Below are positions 17,869-25,839 of a DNA stretch of 46,421 nt, one piece after another (the first letter of the stretch is position 1; each line of letters opens with the position of its first letter). The stretch comes from Steroidobacteraceae bacterium. GTDB taxonomy: Bacteria; Pseudomonadota; Gammaproteobacteria; Steroidobacterales; Steroidobacteraceae. The position numbers and the translations under genes were made by a program. Under the pieces are notes generated by a model. It was not told where the DNA came from, made no database searches, and saw nothing but the letters and a program-made list of their open reading frames with translations. The DNA is taken from assembly GCA_019683695.1 (NCBI GenBank), contig JADGHX010000014.1, positions 1 to 46,421 on the forward strand, in the 5' to 3' direction.

Positions 17869-19401
17869 ATGCCACTGCGCGCATGGGACAGCCGCTTCGG
17901 TTCGCTTCCGGGTGCGCCCGGCCTTCAGGCAATACGGGTGTCACGGGAGGAGTGGCGTCCTCTTGCACAGGACCTCTTGGCCGCCCGCTTTCGTCTGCTT
18001 GCGCTTTGGGCAAGTCGCGGAGCGAATTCCGAAGCCATCATTCACGCGGTGTTCTTCGGCGAACGCGGTGCGCTGCTCGTCAGCATGCCCGTCACGCCGG
18101 AGGAGCGCTACGTGGGGCTGGAGGATCTGTTCCCCGCAGCGTCGCGCATGCAGCGGGCCATCGCGGATCTGTCGGGCCTGCACTCCACGGACGAGGATAA
18201 CCGGCCCTGGTTGCGGCACGCATCCTGGCCTGCGGGCTTCCGGCCGCTCGTGGATGCCGAGGTGCCCGCGCTGGCGGAGCCCGTTGCGGACACCTACGCC
18301 TTCGTCAGCGTCGAAGGGGACGGCGTGCATGAAATCCCGGTCGGCCCGATTCACGCGGGAACCATTGAGCCGGGACACTTCCGTTTCTCCGTGGTCGGCG
18401 AGAAGGTGCTGCGGCTCGAGGAGCGTCTCGGCTATGTGCACAAGGGCATCGAGCGGCGCTTCACGGAACTGCCGATCCTCGAAGCCCATCGCCTCGCCGC
18501 GCGCGTATCGGGAGACTCCGCGGTCGCGTTCTCATGGGCCTACTGTCAGGCGCTGGAAGGCATGTCGGGTGTGCAGATCCCGGCACGCGCTGCATGGCTG
18601 CGCGCGCTCGCCCTGGAGCTGGAGCGCATCGCGAATCATCTGGGCGATCTCGGGGCACTGGGAAACGATGCGGGGTTCGCATTCGGCCTCGCACAGTTCT
18701 CGCGACTGAAGGAAGACCTGCTGCGCGCCACTCACGACGCACTCGGCGCGCGGTATCTCATGGGGCTCATCGTGCCGGGCGGCACGCGGCTCGATCTTTC
18801 CGAAGGTGGTGCAGACCGACTCCGGTCCTGCGTGAGGACACTCACGAAACAAGTCTCCGAGCTGCGCGCGATCTACGACGATCACGAAGGCGTGCGGGAC
18901 CGCTTCATCGGCGCGGGCACGGTCGCTCCTCCGTTGGCCACGCGACTCGGGCTCATCGGGCTCGCCGGCCGGGCCAGTGGTCAGGCGCTCGATCTGCGCG
19001 TCGACCTGCCGTGCGAACCCTACACTGAGCTCTCTCCAGTCAAGGTGTGCCACAACGAAGGCGACGTCGCTGCGCGCGTCGCCGTGCGGTTCGACGAAAC
19101 GCTGGAATCCTGCGCACTCGTCGAGCGCATTCTCGCAACGATGCCGGCAGGCGCTCACATCGAGCACGTGCAGGCGCCCGCCGCAGGCTCGCTGGGGATC
19201 GGCCTCATCGAAGGATGGCGCGGACCGGTGCTCATGGCACTGGAAGCCGGAGTCGATGGAAGCATTCGTCGCTGCCACCCACACGATCCCTCGTGGCAGA
19301 ACTGGCCCGTGCTCGAGCACGCCATCATCGACAACATCGTTCCGGACTTTCCGCTCATCAACAAGTCCTTCAACCTGGCCTACAGCGGGCACGATCTCTG
19401 A
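17869..19401 (+). CDS. hyfG: Hydrogenase-like large subunit (NuoC-NuoD fusion) lacking Ni-Fe ligands
   Basis: The protein has 510 residues. Residues ~20-120 are a NuoC-like domain and ~140-510 a NuoD/hydrogenase large-subunit domain, as in HycE/HyfG. Family marks remain: 'V-G-P-I-H-A-G-T-I-E-P-G-H-F-R-F' (158-173) and 'E-K-V-L-R-L-E-E-R-L-G-Y-V-H-K-G'. But the N-terminal Ni motif R-x-C-G-x-C is R212-V-S214-G-D-S217, and the C-terminal D-P-C-x-x-C is N502-L-A504-Y-S-G507. All four nickel cysteines are gone and the protein ends just after, with no peptide to be cleaved. It cannot hold a standard Ni-Fe centre, so it is not an active hydrogenase. This matches energy-converting hydrogenase-related (Ehr) proteins. 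Confidence 0.9.
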   Translation: MPLRAWDSRFGSLPGAPGLQAIRVSREEWRPLAQDLLAARFRLLALWASRGANSEAIIHAVFFGERGALLVSMPVTPEERYVGLEDLFPAASRMQRAIADLSGLHSTDEDNRPWLRHASWPAGFRPLVDAEVPALAEPVADTYAFVSVEGDGVHEIPVGPIHAGTIEPGHFRFSVVGEKVLRLEERLGYVHKGIERRFTELPILEAHRLAARVSGDSAVAFSWAYCQALEGMSGVQIPARAAWLRALALELERIANHLGDLGALGNDAGFAFGLAQFSRLKEDLLRATHDALGARYLMGLIVPGGTRLDLSEGGADRLRSCVRTLTKQVSELRAIYDDHEGVRDRFIGAGTVAPPLATRLGLIGLAGRASGQALDLRVDLPCEPYTELSPVKVCHNEGDVAARVAVRFDETLESCALVERILATMPAGAHIEHVQAPAAGSLGIGLIEGWRGPVLMALEAGVDGSIRRCHPHDPSWQNWPVLEHAIIDNIVPDFPLINKSFNLAYSGHDL

Positions 19402-19422
19402 TCCGCCGCGAAGCGCACTGCC

Positions 19423-19983
19423 ATGCTGAAAACCCTCAAACAGATCGCGTCCATCGGCATCGTCACCGAGCCCGCGCCCCCGGCGGACGAGAGCCTGCGC
19501 GTGCGGGACGCTCTGCAGGAGCAGATCCGCTCGGTGCTCGGCCGCGCGCTGTGCATCCGACATGTTGATGCGGGCTCCTGCAACGGATGCGAGCTCGAGA
19601 TCCACGCGCTCAACAATCCTGTCTACAACCTCGAAGGGCTCGGCATCCGCTTCGTGGCCAGCCCGCGCCACGCGGACATGCTGCTCGTCACCGGGCCGGT
19701 CTCGCGGCACATGGTCGTCGCCCTCCGCCGGGCCTACGACGCGACGCCTGAACCCAAGCTCGTTGTCGCGCTCGGAGACTGCGGCTGCACGGGTGGCATC
19801 TTCGGTGAGAGCTACGCGTCCTGCGGGCGCGTGGCGAACGTGATTCCGGTAGATGTGGCCATCCCCGGGTGCCCGCCTTCGCCGACGCGCATTCTTCAGG
19901 GCATTCTCGCGGCCCTCCACACCTCACGCGCGAGCGCCGCGGGCGCAAGCGAAACGCTCGACAGCCCCGCGCGCCGGGCCTGA
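19423..19983 (+). CDS. hyfI: Hydrogenase-like small subunit (NuoB type) with intact 4Fe-4S site
   Basis: The protein has 186 residues of the NuoB/HyfI/HycG fold. The four cysteines of the proximal (N2-type) 4Fe-4S cluster are present: C53-N-G-C56, G-D-C120-G-C and P-G-C150-P-P. Preserved cluster ligands beside a large subunit without nickel ligands is the remarkable point of the operon. The start ATG follows the hyfG stop by 21 bases. The C-terminal ~20 residues are Ala/Ser-rich and probably disordered. No ferredoxin-like electron carrier subunit (HyfA/HyfH type) is encoded in the operon. Confidence 0.92.
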   Translation: MLKTLKQIASIGIVTEPAPPADESLRVRDALQEQIRSVLGRALCIRHVDAGSCNGCELEIHALNNPVYNLEGLGIRFVASPRHADMLLVTGPVSRHMVVALRRAYDATPEPKLVVALGDCGCTGGIFGESYASCGRVANVIPVDVAIPGCPPSPTRILQGILAALHTSRASAAGASETLDSPARRA

Positions 19984-20615: not shown

Positions 20616-20958
20616 TCGACGGGCTGTGAAAGTGAGTCTGCCCGAGCGCCGTACCCGCGTGCCCTCGATGATGTGTTTCTGCCGCTCTATCCGAAATCGT
20701 GACCGTCTTTCATTCGCACGCTGACAATAGAGCCTTGGCCGCCCGCGTTATCGGTCATGACTCCGGGGTTCTGGGTGGCGCGTTTCGTGCGACGTTTCGT
20801 TGCGCTTCTGCCTTCGAGTGCGACCCGACATGCGCGCATCATGCGCCGGCATGTCCAAGAGGCGGGGCTGCGCGCTTGCTGTACACAGTCGCTCATCAAT
20901 AGAATCAATTTCGAATTCGGATTCTAATTCTCGATCTGTCGAGCGAGGGGGATTCACG
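20616..20958 (+). promoter_or_regulatory. Intergenic region with sulfatase promoter
   Basis: About 340 bases lie between the nucleosidase stop and the sulfatase start, with no believable gene. Near the right end TTGCTG (20876-20881), an 18-base spacer and TAGAAT (20900-20905) form a good sigma-70-type promoter, in an AT-rich patch unlike its surroundings. A dyad covering the -10 and start point is listed separately. Confidence 0.55.
20901..20925. promoter_or_regulatory. Probable operator dyad over the sulfatase promoter
   Basis: AGAATC (20901-20906) and GATTCT (20920-20925) are inverted around a centre containing the palindrome GAATTC. A second, overlapping dyad GAATT/AATTC spans 20913-20930. 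The site sits on the -10 box and expected transcription start, where a repressor would block RNA polymerase. The nearest regulator gene in the window is the TetR-type gene about 2.7 kb downstream, but I see no matching site in front of that gene. Confidence 0.45.
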
Positions 20959-22350
20959 ATGGGCATCGACTCGGCCACGACCACGCGGCGCTCCTTCCTG
21001 GCAGCGGCGGGCTCGGTGCTCTGCACGGCCCGCGCATTCGGTGCCCTGCCCTCCAGGCGACCGCCGGACGTGCTCTACATCATGGCGGACGATCTCGGCT
21101 GGGCGGATGTTCATTGCTACGGCCGCCTGGATGTGCCCACGCCTCACATCGATGGGCTCGCGGCGGCTGGCATGAAGTTCGACCACGCCTACGCAAACAG
21201 CTGCGTATGCACACCCACGCGCGTCGCGCTGCTCACCGGGCGCTACCAGAATCGTTTTCCCGTAGGGAACGAAGAACCCCTCGGCAAACCCGATGTGGGC
21301 ATCGATCCGGCCACGCCAGGTCTTGCATCGCTTCTCAAGCGTGCCGGGTACCAGACCGTGCTGATCGGCAAGTGGCACCTCGGCATGCCGCTGTCCGTCG
21401 GGCCTCTGAAGCATGGCTACGATCGCTTCTGGGGCATCCGCGGCGGCGGTGTCGACTATTTCACGCACGCCGTGCCCTCCGCCAACGGCGCGCAGCCGGA
21501 TCTCTGGGATGGCGATGTGCGCATCGAGCAGAGCGGTTACCTCACGAACCTGCTGGCGGAACGCGCCGCGCAGGAGGTCGAACGCTGTGCCGCGAGCGAT
21601 GCGCCATTCCTCATCAGCCTGCACTTCACGGCACCGCACTGGCCGTGGGAAACGGAGCAGGACGCGGAGCTCGCCGCACACATCAAGAGCATGATGAACT
21701 TCGACGGCGGCTCGCTCGCGACCTATCAGAGCATGCTCCGCTCGCTCGACAACGGCATCGGCCGGGTACTCGAAGCGCTCGAGCGCAGCGGCCGCGCATC
21801 GAACACGATCGTGGTGTTCACCTCGGACAATGGCGGTGAACGCTTCTCGAGGACCTGGCCCTTCAATGGCATGAAAGGTGAGCTGCTCGAAGGCGGCATC
21901 CGCGTGCCGCTCATCGTGCGGTGGCCGGATCGCGTGCGTGCCGGCTCGCAGAGCAACGAGCTGGCCATGACCATGGACTGGCTGCCCACGTTCCTTGACG
22001 CGGCAGGCGCCAAGCCGGATCCGAGCGCGCCAAGCGATGGCATCAGCCTGCTGCCGGCCTTCGATGGTGGCACGCTGCCCGAGCGCACGCTGTTCTGGCG
22101 CTACAAGGCCAACGACCAGGCTGCGGCGCGCTCCGGCCCCTGGAAGTACCTGCGCATTGGCGGCGATGAGTTCCTCTTCAACGTGGTGGAAGATCCGCAG
22201 GAACGCGCGAATCGCAAAACGCACGAGCCGGAGCGCTTCGAAGCGCTGAAGACCGCGTGGGCCGCCTGGAACCGCACGATGCTCCCCTACACGGCCGGGA
22301 ACCGCTCGTGGGACAACCGGAGCACCGGATCCTTGCCGGACCGCTACTGA
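20959..22350 (+). CDS. Tat-exported formylglycine-dependent sulfatase
   Basis: The protein has 463 residues in the alkaline-phosphatase/sulfatase superfamily. A twin-arginine signal (T-R10-R11-S-F-L-A-A-A-G) directs folded export. Metal-binding Asp pair D44-D45 sits in 'M-A-D-D-L-G-W'. The motif C84-T-P-T-R88 is the C-x-P-x-R site whose Cys becomes formylglycine, followed by 'L-L-T-G-R-Y'. 'G-K-W-H-L-G' and 'F-T-S-D-N-G-G' are further active-site marks. It would hydrolyse a sulfate ester in the periplasm. No formylglycine-generating enzyme lies in the window. GAGGGGGA precedes the ATG by 7 nt. The stop overlaps the convergent oxidoreductase gene by 7 bases. Confidence 0.92.
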   Translation: MGIDSATTTRRSFLAAAGSVLCTARAFGALPSRRPPDVLYIMADDLGWADVHCYGRLDVPTPHIDGLAAAGMKFDHAYANSCVCTPTRVALLTGRYQNRFPVGNEEPLGKPDVGIDPATPGLASLLKRAGYQTVLIGKWHLGMPLSVGPLKHGYDRFWGIRGGGVDYFTHAVPSANGAQPDLWDGDVRIEQSGYLTNLLAERAAQEVERCAASDAPFLISLHFTAPHWPWETEQDAELAAHIKSMMNFDGGSLATYQSMLRSLDNGIGRVLEALERSGRASNTIVVFTSDNGGERFSRTWPFNGMKGELLEGGIRVPLIVRWPDRVRAGSQSNELAMTMDWLPTFLDAAGAKPDPSAPSDGISLLPAFDGGTLPERTLFWRYKANDQAAARSGPWKYLRIGGDEFLFNVVEDPQERANRKTHEPERFEALKTAWAAWNRTMLPYTAGNRSWDNRSTGSLPDRY

Positions 22351-23588
22351 GCGCAGGGCAAGCTCGCGCGAATGCGCTGATTCAGGTCCGCCAGCATCTG
22401 CACCGTACGCTCGGCACCGGCGCGGTCCGGCGTCGTGTCCTCGTTGCCGAAATCCCCAGGCGCGGGGGATTGCAGAACGATGCCGTCCCGGCGGGGCAGC
22501 ATGTATAGCTGATCGTTGTATGCGAGGCCGTACCGGACCTCCGGCTGCGGGATCAGCCTCATGAGCTGGCCCCGCACGGGGATCACGGATTCGTCGCCGA
22601 AGAGCGCGCGGGCACCGTAACCCGTCGCATTGATCACCGTCTTCTCGCGCAGGCGCGCAATGTCTTCGGGTTTCTCGAACTCCCGCGTCTCGATCTCGCC
22701 GCCAGCCGCGAGAAAGTCGGCCATCAGCATGCGCGAGTAGGCACTGATGTTGAAGATCATGTTCGTGTACCGGCGCACGAACGGCACCGGAAACGGATGA
22801 GTGCCCGGTGCGAGCACTTCTCCTCCGGGCATCAGATCGCTCAGGCGACTCTCCAGGTTCGGATAGTCCGGCTCGCCCGCGAACAGGTCGGCACCGAATC
22901 CGTTCCCGTCCCGAAGATAGTACCCGTCGAACCACTCGATGGGATTGCCCGGCAGCCCGAGCAGATGCTGGTACGTGCGAAAGCTGATGCGCGCCATCTC
23001 TTCCCAGCGAGCGACGAGCTCCGGCGTTGCCGCTTCGCGCGTGCAGAAGCGTGAGTTCGGGGACCAGTTGCCGGTGGCGAACGTGGATCGCACGTCGGGG
23101 AAGCGCTCTTTCGCGTAGATGCGCACCTTCATCCCCGCCCGCTGCGCAACGAGCGCCGAGGTGAGCCCGATGACGCCGCAGCCGATCACCGCGATCCTTT
23201 CCTGTCGCGTTTCCTGCACGAGCCGCAGTGCCAGCGTGGCGGAGCCCCATGACAAGGACCAGCCGCTACCGCCGTGACCGTAGTTGTGCACGATGGTCTT
23301 GCGACCCAGCCGCTGCTTTTCGATTCGTGGCCCATGCTCACGGAAGGGGCGCGTGCATACGGTGAGCGCGATGATGCGATCGGGCTGCGCGCGCACGAGT
23401 GGCAGCGGTGTGCGCACGCCATCCACGATGATGGAAGGCTGCACGTGCGCGCACGGCGGAGCGGCCTCCGGTGTGCCGGCGTGCGGTGCTGGAGGCGGAG
23501 CCTTCGTCTCCGCGCCAGAGACGGCGGCCGTCGAGGCGGAGGCCAGCGCGATGCCTGCACTCTTGAGGAAATCACGACGCTGCACCAT
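22344..23588 (-). CDS. FAD oxidoreductase, D-amino-acid-oxidase-like, permuted order
   Basis: The protein has 414 residues with a Tat signal (Q-R4-R5-D-F-L-K-S-A-G). The Rossmann FAD motif 'I-A-V-I-G-C-G-V-I-G-L' is at residues ~132-142, unusually far in. It is preceded at residues ~99-122 by 'V-H-N-Y-G-H-G-G-S-G-W-S-L-S-W-G', a motif that in D-amino-acid oxidases sits at the C-terminus. The protein ends with 'Y-M-L-P-R-R-D-G-I-V-L-Q' and a helix, where ordinary members continue into that motif. So the order looks circularly permuted. It is probably a periplasmic amine or D-amino-acid oxidase. It is 44 bases downstream of the TetR gene on the same strand. Confidence 0.82.
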   Translation of the reverse strand: MVQRRDFLKSAGIALASASTAAVSGAETKAPPPAPHAGTPEAAPPCAHVQPSIIVDGVRTPLPLVRAQPDRIIALTVCTRPFREHGPRIEKQRLGRKTIVHNYGHGGSGWSLSWGSATLALRLVQETRQERIAVIGCGVIGLTSALVAQRAGMKVRIYAKERFPDVRSTFATGNWSPNSRFCTREAATPELVARWEEMARISFRTYQHLLGLPGNPIEWFDGYYLRDGNGFGADLFAGEPDYPNLESRLSDLMPGGEVLAPGTHPFPVPFVRRYTNMIFNISAYSRMLMADFLAAGGEIETREFEKPEDIARLREKTVINATGYGARALFGDESVIPVRGQLMRLIPQPEVRYGLAYNDQLYMLPRRDGIVLQSPAPGDFGNEDTTPDRAGAERTVQMLADLNQRIRASLPCAQ

Positions 23589-23632: not shown

Positions 23633-24256
23633 TCACGTCCCGGGCTCTGCCAGCCCTGCGACCAGCCGGAAGGCGCGAATCAGTTCGGCACGCATCACCT
23701 TGTCGTTCGCGGACAGCGGCACGACGCGAACGAGCACGGCATTGTTCACGAAGCCGTTCAGCAGCAACTGCGCCGTGCGGATGCGGCGCCGCTCTTCCGC
23801 CGTGAGCTTCCGGCCAATCCTGCGCTCCTGATGCTGCACGATGTGATCGCACACCTTCAGCCCGATGTCCCGCAACGCCTCCCAGAACTTCGGCTCACTC
23901 GCGCCGCGCACCAGTGCGGCATGCCAGAGCTTGCGCTCGCGGAGCACGAAGCCGAGCACGCTGTTCACCACTTCTGTGGCGAGATCGGCATCCGGCGGCA
24001 GGCTGGCCCAGAACGCTTCCACCTCGCGCGAGCGGCGCTCCACGAATTGCGCGCAAAGCGCCTCGAAAAACGACTCCTTGTCGCCGTAGCGCGCGTAGAA
24101 CGAGCCGATGGACGAGCCCGCAGCTTCCGCAATATCCGTGACGGCCAGCTCACTCCACATGCGCTTCTGCAAAAGACGATTCGCGGCCGCGAGCAGACTG
24201 TCCCGTGTTTCCCGGCTGCGCTCCTGCCTCACGGGCCTCGGTTTCGCGAACTTCAT
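23633..24256 (-). CDS. TetR family transcriptional regulator
   Basis: The protein has 207 residues. The N-terminal helix-turn-helix runs from ~14 to 60: 'R-E-T-R-D-S-L-L-A-A-A' then 'V-T-D-I-A-E-A-A-G-S-S-I-G-S-F-Y-A-R-Y-G-D-K-E-S-F-F', the standard TetR recognition region. The C-terminal domain is all helical and would bind a small ligand and dimerise. It lies between the permease gene (146 bases upstream, same strand) and the oxidoreductase gene (44 bases downstream), so it likely controls uptake and oxidation of some amino compound, possibly also the sulfatase. The ATG opens the basic N-terminal arm. Confidence 0.9.
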   Translation of the reverse strand: MKFAKPRPVRQERSRETRDSLLAAANRLLQKRMWSELAVTDIAEAAGSSIGSFYARYGDKESFFEALCAQFVERRSREVEAFWASLPPDADLATEVVNSVLGFVLRERKLWHAALVRGASEPKFWEALRDIGLKVCDHIVQHQERRIGRKLTAEERRRIRTAQLLLNGFVNNAVLVRVVPLSANDKVMRAELIRAFRLVAGLAEPGT

Positions 24257-24402
24257 GGCGCGGAAGGCGTGGAGGGGCGAACGGGCTGAAAGCGAAGCAT
24301 GGGCTCGCGTGATGGAATACGGCGTCGTGACTGCGCCAGAGCGCGCGGAGGAACGTACAGGATGTGTTGGGCGCAATCAACGCGGAAGGAGCGCCGACGC
24401 GC

Positions 24403-25839
24403 TCACTGGCCCGACGTGGGGGAGTCCGCGTCTCGCAGCGACGTACGCGTGTTCCGGGCATACTGCTCATAGAGCCGCAGGCCGACCCAGACCACCGCCC
24501 CGCTCAGCATAACGAACAGCGCCACGTAGCTCGCGTGTTCCGACTGAGCGTGCCGAACGCTCGAGTAGAGCAGGTATGCGCAGGTGGCGATGAACACGAG
24601 CGGCAGCACCGGATACAGCGGCACCTTGTAGGGCCGCGCCCTTTCCGGCTCCTTCCTGCGCAGCACGAACAGCGCAATGCCCGTCAGCATGAAGAAGAAC
24701 CAGAACACCGGCGCCGTGAACTCCACGAGCGTCGAGAAGCCATCCTTCGTGAGCGCCCCGAAGCCGATGAGCGCCAACGTGATGAGCGCCAGGGCAATGA
24801 AGCCGGCGTGCGGCGTGCTGCGCTCACCGTGCCATCGTCCCAGAAAGCCGAACACGGGCCAGTCTCGGGCCAGCGCGTAGCTCGAACGCGCCCCAACGAG
24901 CATCGTGGAGTTCATGGAGGTGAGCGCGGACACCGCCACCAGCACCCCGATCGCCTGCCCGCCCGTGGTGCCCACAATCTGCGTCACGGCATCCACCGCC
25001 ACGGCGTCACTCGCCTTCATGCTCTCGAAGCCGAGCGTGGTCATCAGCCCTCCCACGAACAGGAGGTACACGAGCGTGATCACCGTGATGGAAAGAAGCA
25101 GTGTCCTCAGCACCGCGCGCGGCCCGGAACGCAGCTCGGCGGAAACGTACGCCGCTTCGTTCCAGCCACCATACGTGAGCAGCACGAAGACCAGAGCAAG
25201 CCCCAGCGTGCCCGTGCCGGAAACCGCGGGTCCCGCAAGCGAATTCTCGGGCGGCGAGCCGAACAGGAACCCCGCCACGCCGATGAGCAGCACGCCCGTG
25301 ACTTCGACGATCGTGAGCACGTTCTGCATTCGCGAGGAGGCGCGCAGGCCCGCGAGGTTGATGGCCGTCAGCACGACAACGGCGATCGCTGCATAAATTG
25401 CGGACGAATGCGGCCCCAGGTTCCACAGTCGCGTGAGATAGTCCCCGAGAATGTACGCGATGAGCGCGATGGATCCGGTGACGATCACCATCGTGCGCGC
25501 CCATGCGAAAAGAAAGCTCACGTCGCGCCCATAGGCGCGCGTCAGAAACGAGTACTCCCCGCCTGCGCTCGGATAGGTGCTTGCCAGCTCCGCGTACGTG
25601 AGCGCGCCGACGAACGACAACGCGCCGCCGAGCACCCATGCCGCAAGCATCAGCAGCGGCGAGCCCGCAATGCTCGCGACGAGCGCCGGCGTCTGGAAAA
25701 TGCCGGCGCCCACCACGATGCCCACCGTGATCATCACGGCCGCGAACACACTGAGCACCGGGCGCGGACCGGCGGGTACGTCCACGGCGGCTCCGGCGAC
25801 ATCCACCGGAGCGGTGTGCTGAGGGTGGATGTCGTTCAT
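24403..25839 (-). CDS. APC-family amino acid permease
   Basis: The protein has 478 residues and 12 membrane helices. The first helix has 'V-G-I-V-V-G-A-G-I-F-Q-T-P', the substrate-backbone site of amino acid/polyamine/organocation transporters. 'T-Y-A-E-L-A-S-T-Y-P-S-A-G-G-E-Y' follows helix 2, and 'L-T-Y-G-G-W-N-E-A-A-Y' marks helix 6. It resembles LAT/SteT-type exchangers. The stop of the exported methyltransferase gene is 17 bases upstream, so these two are one transcription unit. The substrate is probably an amino acid; the neighbouring D-amino-acid-oxidase-like gene fits this. Confidence 0.9.
   Translation of the reverse strand: MNDIHPQHTAPVDVAGAAVDVPAGPRPVLSVFAAVMITVGIVVGAGIFQTPALVASIAGSPLLMLAAWVLGGALSFVGALTYAELASTYPSAGGEYSFLTRAYGRDVSFLFAWARTMVIVTGSIALIAYILGDYLTRLWNLGPHSSAIYAAIAVVVLTAINLAGLRASSRMQNVLTIVEVTGVLLIGVAGFLFGSPPENSLAGPAVSGTGTLGLALVFVLLTYGGWNEAAYVSAELRSGPRAVLRTLLLSITVITLVYLLFVGGLMTTLGFESMKASDAVAVDAVTQIVGTTGGQAIGVLVAVSALTSMNSTMLVGARSSYALARDWPVFGFLGRWHGERSTPHAGFIALALITLALIGFGALTKDGFSTLVEFTAPVFWFFFMLTGIALFVLRRKEPERARPYKVPLYPVLPLVFIATCAYLLYSSVRHAQSEHASYVALFVMLSGAVVWVGLRLYEQYARNTRTSLRDADSPTSGQ

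Follow-up and report, generated by a model that had tools for sequence, protein, structure and literature searches.

The gene at 22344..23588 on the minus strand of the window (the whole stretch of 46,421 nucleotides that was analysed, contig JADGHX010000014.1 of a Steroidobacteraceae bacterium) probably encodes a natural, circularly permuted flavoenzyme of the D-amino-acid oxidase (DAAO) family that is sent by the Tat pathway to the periplasm, with the oxidation of amino acids, likely D-amino acids, as its predicted function. The product of 414 aa, read from ATG to stop, matches PF01266 (DAO) at 1.6e-25 in two stretches, while an NCBIfam search returned only matches under the model cut-offs and assigned no family name. 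Its N-terminus, MVQRRDFLKSAGIALASASTAAVSG, is a twin-arginine signal, a Pro/Ala-rich stretch comes next, and this is followed by RIIALTVCTRPFREHGPRIEKQRLGRKTIVHNYGHGGSGWSLSWGSATLALRLVQETRQE and then by RIAVIGCGVIG. On the minus strand, a Tat signal is assigned to residues 1-27 (MVQRRDFLKSAGIALASASTAAVSGAE; 23508..23588) from the sequence, a crude signal scan and TatC in the genome, and the Pro/Ala-rich linker with the beginning of the folded part to residues 28-65 (23394..23507) from sequence and pLDDT. The moved segment, residues 66-129 (23202..23393; phmmer and profile), corresponds to the C-terminal part of an ordinary DAAO (human DAAO 274-335) and contains the HNYGHGG motif at residues 101-107 (23268..23288). 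Residues 130-414 (22347..23201; phmmer, profile and structural alignment) correspond to the N-terminal part of an ordinary DAAO (pig DAAO 1-269), comprise the FAD-domain and substrate-domain part, and contain the FAD dinucleotide-binding motif GCGVIG, of the GxGxxG type, at residues 136-141 (23166..23183). An earlier note on this DNA had described a HNYGHGG segment ahead of the FAD motif, a C-terminus that stops before the place of that segment, and a Tat signal with a Pro-rich linker behind it. These descriptions hold: the motif order and its coordinates are right, the chain ends at about canonical position 265, and the linker follows a start of MVQRRDFLK. By sequence, the last ~60 residues of the DAAO fold (the substrate-arginine strands, the flavin strand with HNYGHGG and the helix at the C-terminus) now lead the chain; the fold and FAD site are predicted to be unchanged.

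When the protein was searched with phmmer against PDB sequences, several DAAO chains were each matched twice, in swapped order and with no overlap. In human DAAO, query residues 71-129 align with 274-335 and query residues 131-353 with 2-212, and in Rasamsonia DAAO query residues 72-130 align with 320-378; in the phmmer alignments shown, the moved segment lies C-terminally in every PDB chain that it matches. Judged by these two swapped matches to the same DAAO chains, the motif order of the window protein is far beyond chance. A canonical DAAO profile, derived from 14 proteins of canonical order (nine bacterial, one archaeal and four eukaryotic partial sequences), also matches the native protein twice, with model positions 264-323 at residues 70-127 (60.9 bits) and 2-257 at residues 129-402 (112.6 bits). 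Once residues 66-129 are moved to the end there is a single match, to model positions 4-323, at 184.8 bits, and six relatives from different clades likewise give a single profile match each when de-permuted. The two segments jointly cover the DAAO profile once, with no duplication and with only about six positions at the cut missing, and the protein is therefore strictly a circular permutation. The cut, at canonical positions ~258-264, probably lies in a loop, with the last helix of the N-terminal part on one side and the substrate-arginine strand on the other. An assembly error is not the explanation, as about 100 relatives from six phyla have the same order.

The AlphaFold model of the window protein (80 sequences in the alignment) has a mean pLDDT of 92.1 and a pTM of 0.86; by residue, pLDDT is mostly above 90 over residues 51-410, with means of 52-69 over residues 11-50 and of 92 or more from residue 51 onward. 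With the chain in its native order, a sequential aligner places residues 130-405 on residues 1-269 of pig DAAO (Z 20.1, rmsd 2.7-2.8) and residues 128-404 on human D-aspartate oxidase 2-263 (Z 21.2). The C-terminal ~70 residues of both reference chains stay unmatched, as expected of a permuted chain. In the fold, residues 66-129 would take the place of the DAAO C-terminal part, as indicated by homology and by the order of the predicted strands and helix. New termini at the surface, as the earlier note proposed, would fit both a cut placed in a loop and the low pLDDT values over residues 11-50. A disulphide that would join these termini by pairing C46 with the cysteine of LPCAQ was considered and rejected, C46 being found in no other member. 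Completion of the neighbouring subunit's fold by residues 66-129, in a domain-swapped oligomer, is possible in principle, but is very improbable given the confident single-chain model and the link of only about five residues that joins the moved segment to the Rossmann strand (residue 125 to 131). That the N-terminal segment is instead a domain added to a truncated DAAO, a reading favoured by nothing except the motif order itself, is scarcely credible and is refuted by the sequence, since the segment is homologous to DAAO 274-335, sums with the remainder to a whole DAAO profile with no overlap, shares its order with ~100 members, and is accompanied by no second HNYGHGG such as a second copy of this fold element at the C-terminus would bring.

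Collection of homologs yielded about 100 relatives with permuted order. At least six phyla are represented, the named records belonging to Pseudomonadota, Acidobacteriota, Bacteroidota, Verrucomicrobiota, Gemmatimonadota and Actinomycetota. When one genome per species was scanned, at least 317 relatives came to light; in the best 80 of these, which were examined for order, and in the relatives from a phylum sample (398 genomes, 20 with a match including the window's own), HNYGHGG lies near the start of the chain. Wherever a strict FAD-motif pattern could be detected in relatives, HNYGHGG always comes first; the pattern is too strict for some relatives, and for these the order was taken from HNYGHGG at about residue 100 of ~400 together with collinear alignment. 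By tblastn against plasmids, the permuted order was found in Niveispirillum, Kozakia, Nonomuraea, Rhizobium and Bradyrhizobium, and a Streptomyces match (L015) proved to be of canonical order; no relatives were found on viral contigs. The permuted form is also known from the culturable genera Xanthomonas, Dyella, Pseudomonas, Sphingomonas, Komagataeibacter and Dyadobacter. Its distribution is patchy, in that among 274 genomes sampled from the window's own class only the window's genome has the gene, and none of the 35 sampled genomes of its own family does. From this absence in all 35 family members, the gene in the window's genome was probably either acquired or is a rare survivor; GC content is uniform along the region.

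In trees for which permuted proteins were first restored to canonical order, the permuted forms group together. A larger tree of 102 permuted and 16 other sequences has a branch that sets them apart (SH-aLRT 92), and in a careful tree of 60 sequences they are monophyletic (94/84), with 94% of 200 bootstrap trees in agreement. The glycine oxidase outgroup falls on the canonical side and the permuted forms are nested among DAAO oxidases, which makes a single permutation inside the DAAO family the simplest reading. Since ~100 relatives from six phyla share the same order and form this one group, the sequences are most simply read as descending from one old permutation. The existence of a permuted family, as suggested in the earlier note, is in this way borne out by profile scores, trees and collinear relatives alike. 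Halostagnicola was considered as sister to the permuted clade and set aside, as it sits on a long branch and its placement is distrusted. The basal permuted clade is mixed, with three members lacking a signal peptide (L012, L013, L014) and one having it (L110). Two of the signal-less members, rhizobial and on conjugative plasmids (L013:4470-8696 and L014:4357-8684), have a different, conserved three-gene context, in which the permuted gene lies between a FAD-binding (berberine-bridge-like) oxidoreductase and a thiamine-pyrophosphate enzyme.

Several features of the DAAO active site are shared by the permuted members. R80, within the moved segment, is equivalent to R283 of human DAAO, the arginine that binds the substrate carboxylate, and is present in 103/103 members that have a residue at that position. 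H101, Y103 and H105 are invariant (104/104), and the segment IVHNYGHGGSGWSLSWGSA at residues 99-117 carries the DAO signature around HNYGHGG, judged against the PROSITE pattern. Position 362 corresponds to the substrate tyrosine of DAAO (Y228 in human DAAO, Y223 in RgDAAO) and is tyrosine in the window protein, whereas across the family it is Y in only 32/104, S in 32/104 and N in 17/104. The variability of this position means that substrate or chemistry may have shifted; from the alignment, carboxylate binding and the flavin-side motif seem to be kept, and the remainder of the pocket looks diverged. For export, the window protein has an n-region of QRRDFLK followed by a hydrophobic stretch, and TatC is encoded in the same genome (239.9 bits); predicted Tat export to the periplasm fits this RR signal and TatC. 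We infer from the Tat signal that the protein would be exported folded and loaded with FAD. In a crude script-based survey of 108 sequences, at least 81 have RR ahead of a hydrophobic stretch, and a lipobox-like motif is present in 54.

The surroundings of the permuted genes give some indication of function. In the window, a TetR-type regulator (23633..24376, minus; PF00440, 9.7e-09) lies 44 nt upstream of the DAO gene on the same strand, and upstream of it, again on the same strand, is an APC amino-acid permease (24403..25839, minus; PF13520, 1e-51). In this genome the co-directional TetR regulator would exert control and the permease would import amino acids. At eight loci of one subclade (Acetobacteraceae/sphingomonad), genes for exported cytochromes c stand immediately downstream of the DAO gene, often overlapping its stop codon, and at the gammaproteobacterial loci L083 and L087 a longer downstream protein has a cytochrome-like CxxCH motif. 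RidA-family genes (PF01042) with hydrophobic, signal-like N-termini occur at 8/85 loci, directly adjoining the DAO gene at five of these eight (four divergent, one downstream). Cytochrome c and RidA neighbours are thus confined to a minority of loci, and neither is present in the window. Four RidA genes, with no evident signal peptide, are encoded in the 5.18 Mb of the window's genome, from which about one RidA gene would be expected by chance in the 1 Mb of flanks, as a rough figure. Peptidase S11 (DD-peptidase) genes lie upstream of the DAO gene in the Rhodoferax/Pelomonas clade, S12 hydrolases like AmpH or D-aminopeptidase lie near some other permuted genes, and a DadA-like gene is found near the permuted gene in Kozakia. 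A general role of S11 peptidases was considered and discarded, as all four cases belong to the one Rhodoferax/Pelomonas clade.

On the basis of these neighbours, we tentatively propose, as something short of an even prospect, that the permuted family is central to a module for D-amino-acid respiration in the periplasm, in which DD-peptidases or D-aminopeptidases free the substrate, cytochrome c accepts the electrons and exported RidA removes the imine. In our main and more probable reading, the enzyme would oxidise small amino acids at their C-N bond, the likeliest substrates being D-amino acids released from the cell wall or from extracytoplasmic peptides. The resulting imine would be hydrolysed, with the assistance of exported RidA at some loci. 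Oxygen would accept the electrons in some lineages, and a dedicated cytochrome c would do so in the Acetobacteraceae/sphingomonad subclade. It is also conceivable, although we would not presume it, that the same permuted fold acts as an ordinary oxygen-using oxidase making periplasmic H2O2, with cytochrome c merely a local addition. Such activity would agree with the nesting of the permuted clade among DAAO oxidases and with the genomic context, as most loci, that of the window included, have no adjacent cytochrome c; the cytochrome c genes that adjoin or overlap the stop codon at eight loci are harder to reconcile with it. We regard as rather unlikely that an enzyme of this fold and location acts on something other than a free D-amino acid, such as an N-substituted amino acid, a peptide end or an opine-like compound. 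The variable tyrosine position would allow this, as would the next-best folds of the window model, which include glycine oxidase, iminodiacetate oxidase and opine dehydrogenase. However, the Arg283 equivalent is invariant, the best fold scores are those of D-amino-acid and D-aspartate oxidase, and DD-peptidase, D-aminopeptidase-like and DadA-like genes are among the neighbours.

The window protein shares the FAD motif, the RPxR arginine and HNYGHGG with the DAAO/D-aspartate oxidase family (PF01266; PDB 1kif, 2du8, 6rkf, 1c0k, 7ct4), and its residues 130-405 have a common fold with these chains at Z 19-21 and 22-24% identity. In contrast to that family, its order is rotated at canonical ~258-264, so that HNYGHGG comes first rather than last, it has a Tat signal, and the substrate tyrosine is poorly kept among the permuted members. 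The D-amino-acid dehydrogenase DadA is a DAO-superfamily enzyme that also oxidises D-amino acids, but it has canonical order and only local similarity to the window protein, at the FAD motif (29.6 bits). The closest experimental precedent is lao-cccA-ridA of Gluconacetobacter diazotrophicus, where a predicted Tat-exported L-amino-acid oxidase has cytochrome c and ridA genes alongside and where transposon insertions in the oxidase gene abolish formation of indole-acetic acid from tryptophan (PMC5053998). Both systems follow the same logic, in which amino acids are oxidised by an exported enzyme with cytochrome c and RidA genes alongside, whereas that oxidase, of 533 residues, belongs to a different flavoenzyme family, is related to the Rhodococcus-type L-amino-acid oxidases, and is unpermuted as far as described (PMC5053998). 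In the open-access literature we found no natural circular permutation described for the DAAO family; searches that covered permuted or exported D-amino-acid oxidases and flavoenzymes likewise gave no description, and the permuted, exported form of DAAO seems to be undescribed. DAAO is a textbook flavoenzyme, and the permuted form, apparently old, occurs widely, also in bacteria that can be cultured. Nature thus provides a test of how far chain order matters for folding and FAD binding, in which permuted and canonical relatives are directly comparable, and annotation profiles that are bound to order give only partial matches to the permuted form. If the evidence from neighbouring genes holds, it would also represent an overlooked route of extracytoplasmic amino-acid oxidation in Gram-negative bacteria.

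Some further genes near these loci are of note. In an Opitutales genome, the permuted gene has a divergent neighbour (L036:1433-2776, minus) that encodes a 447-aa signal-bearing RidA-type protein, apparently a single chain of several RidA repeats. In Pelomonas (L025:4187-5905, L028 and L034), the gene directly upstream of the permuted one encodes a BlaR1/M56-like part fused to an S11 D-Ala-D-Ala peptidase. In the window, a sulfatase gene (20800-22350, plus; PF00884) whose product has its own twin-arginine signal (TTRRSFLAAAG) is convergent with the DAO gene, the two ends overlapping by 7 nt. At 17869-19983 on the plus strand, the window encodes hydrogenase/complex-I-like subunits, including a large-subunit-like ORF of 510 aa, which on inspection by eye shows no obvious nickel-ligand motifs of the paired-cysteine (CxxC) type, and a 186-aa Oxidored_q6 protein; these subunits possibly belong to an energy-converting-hydrogenase-related complex.
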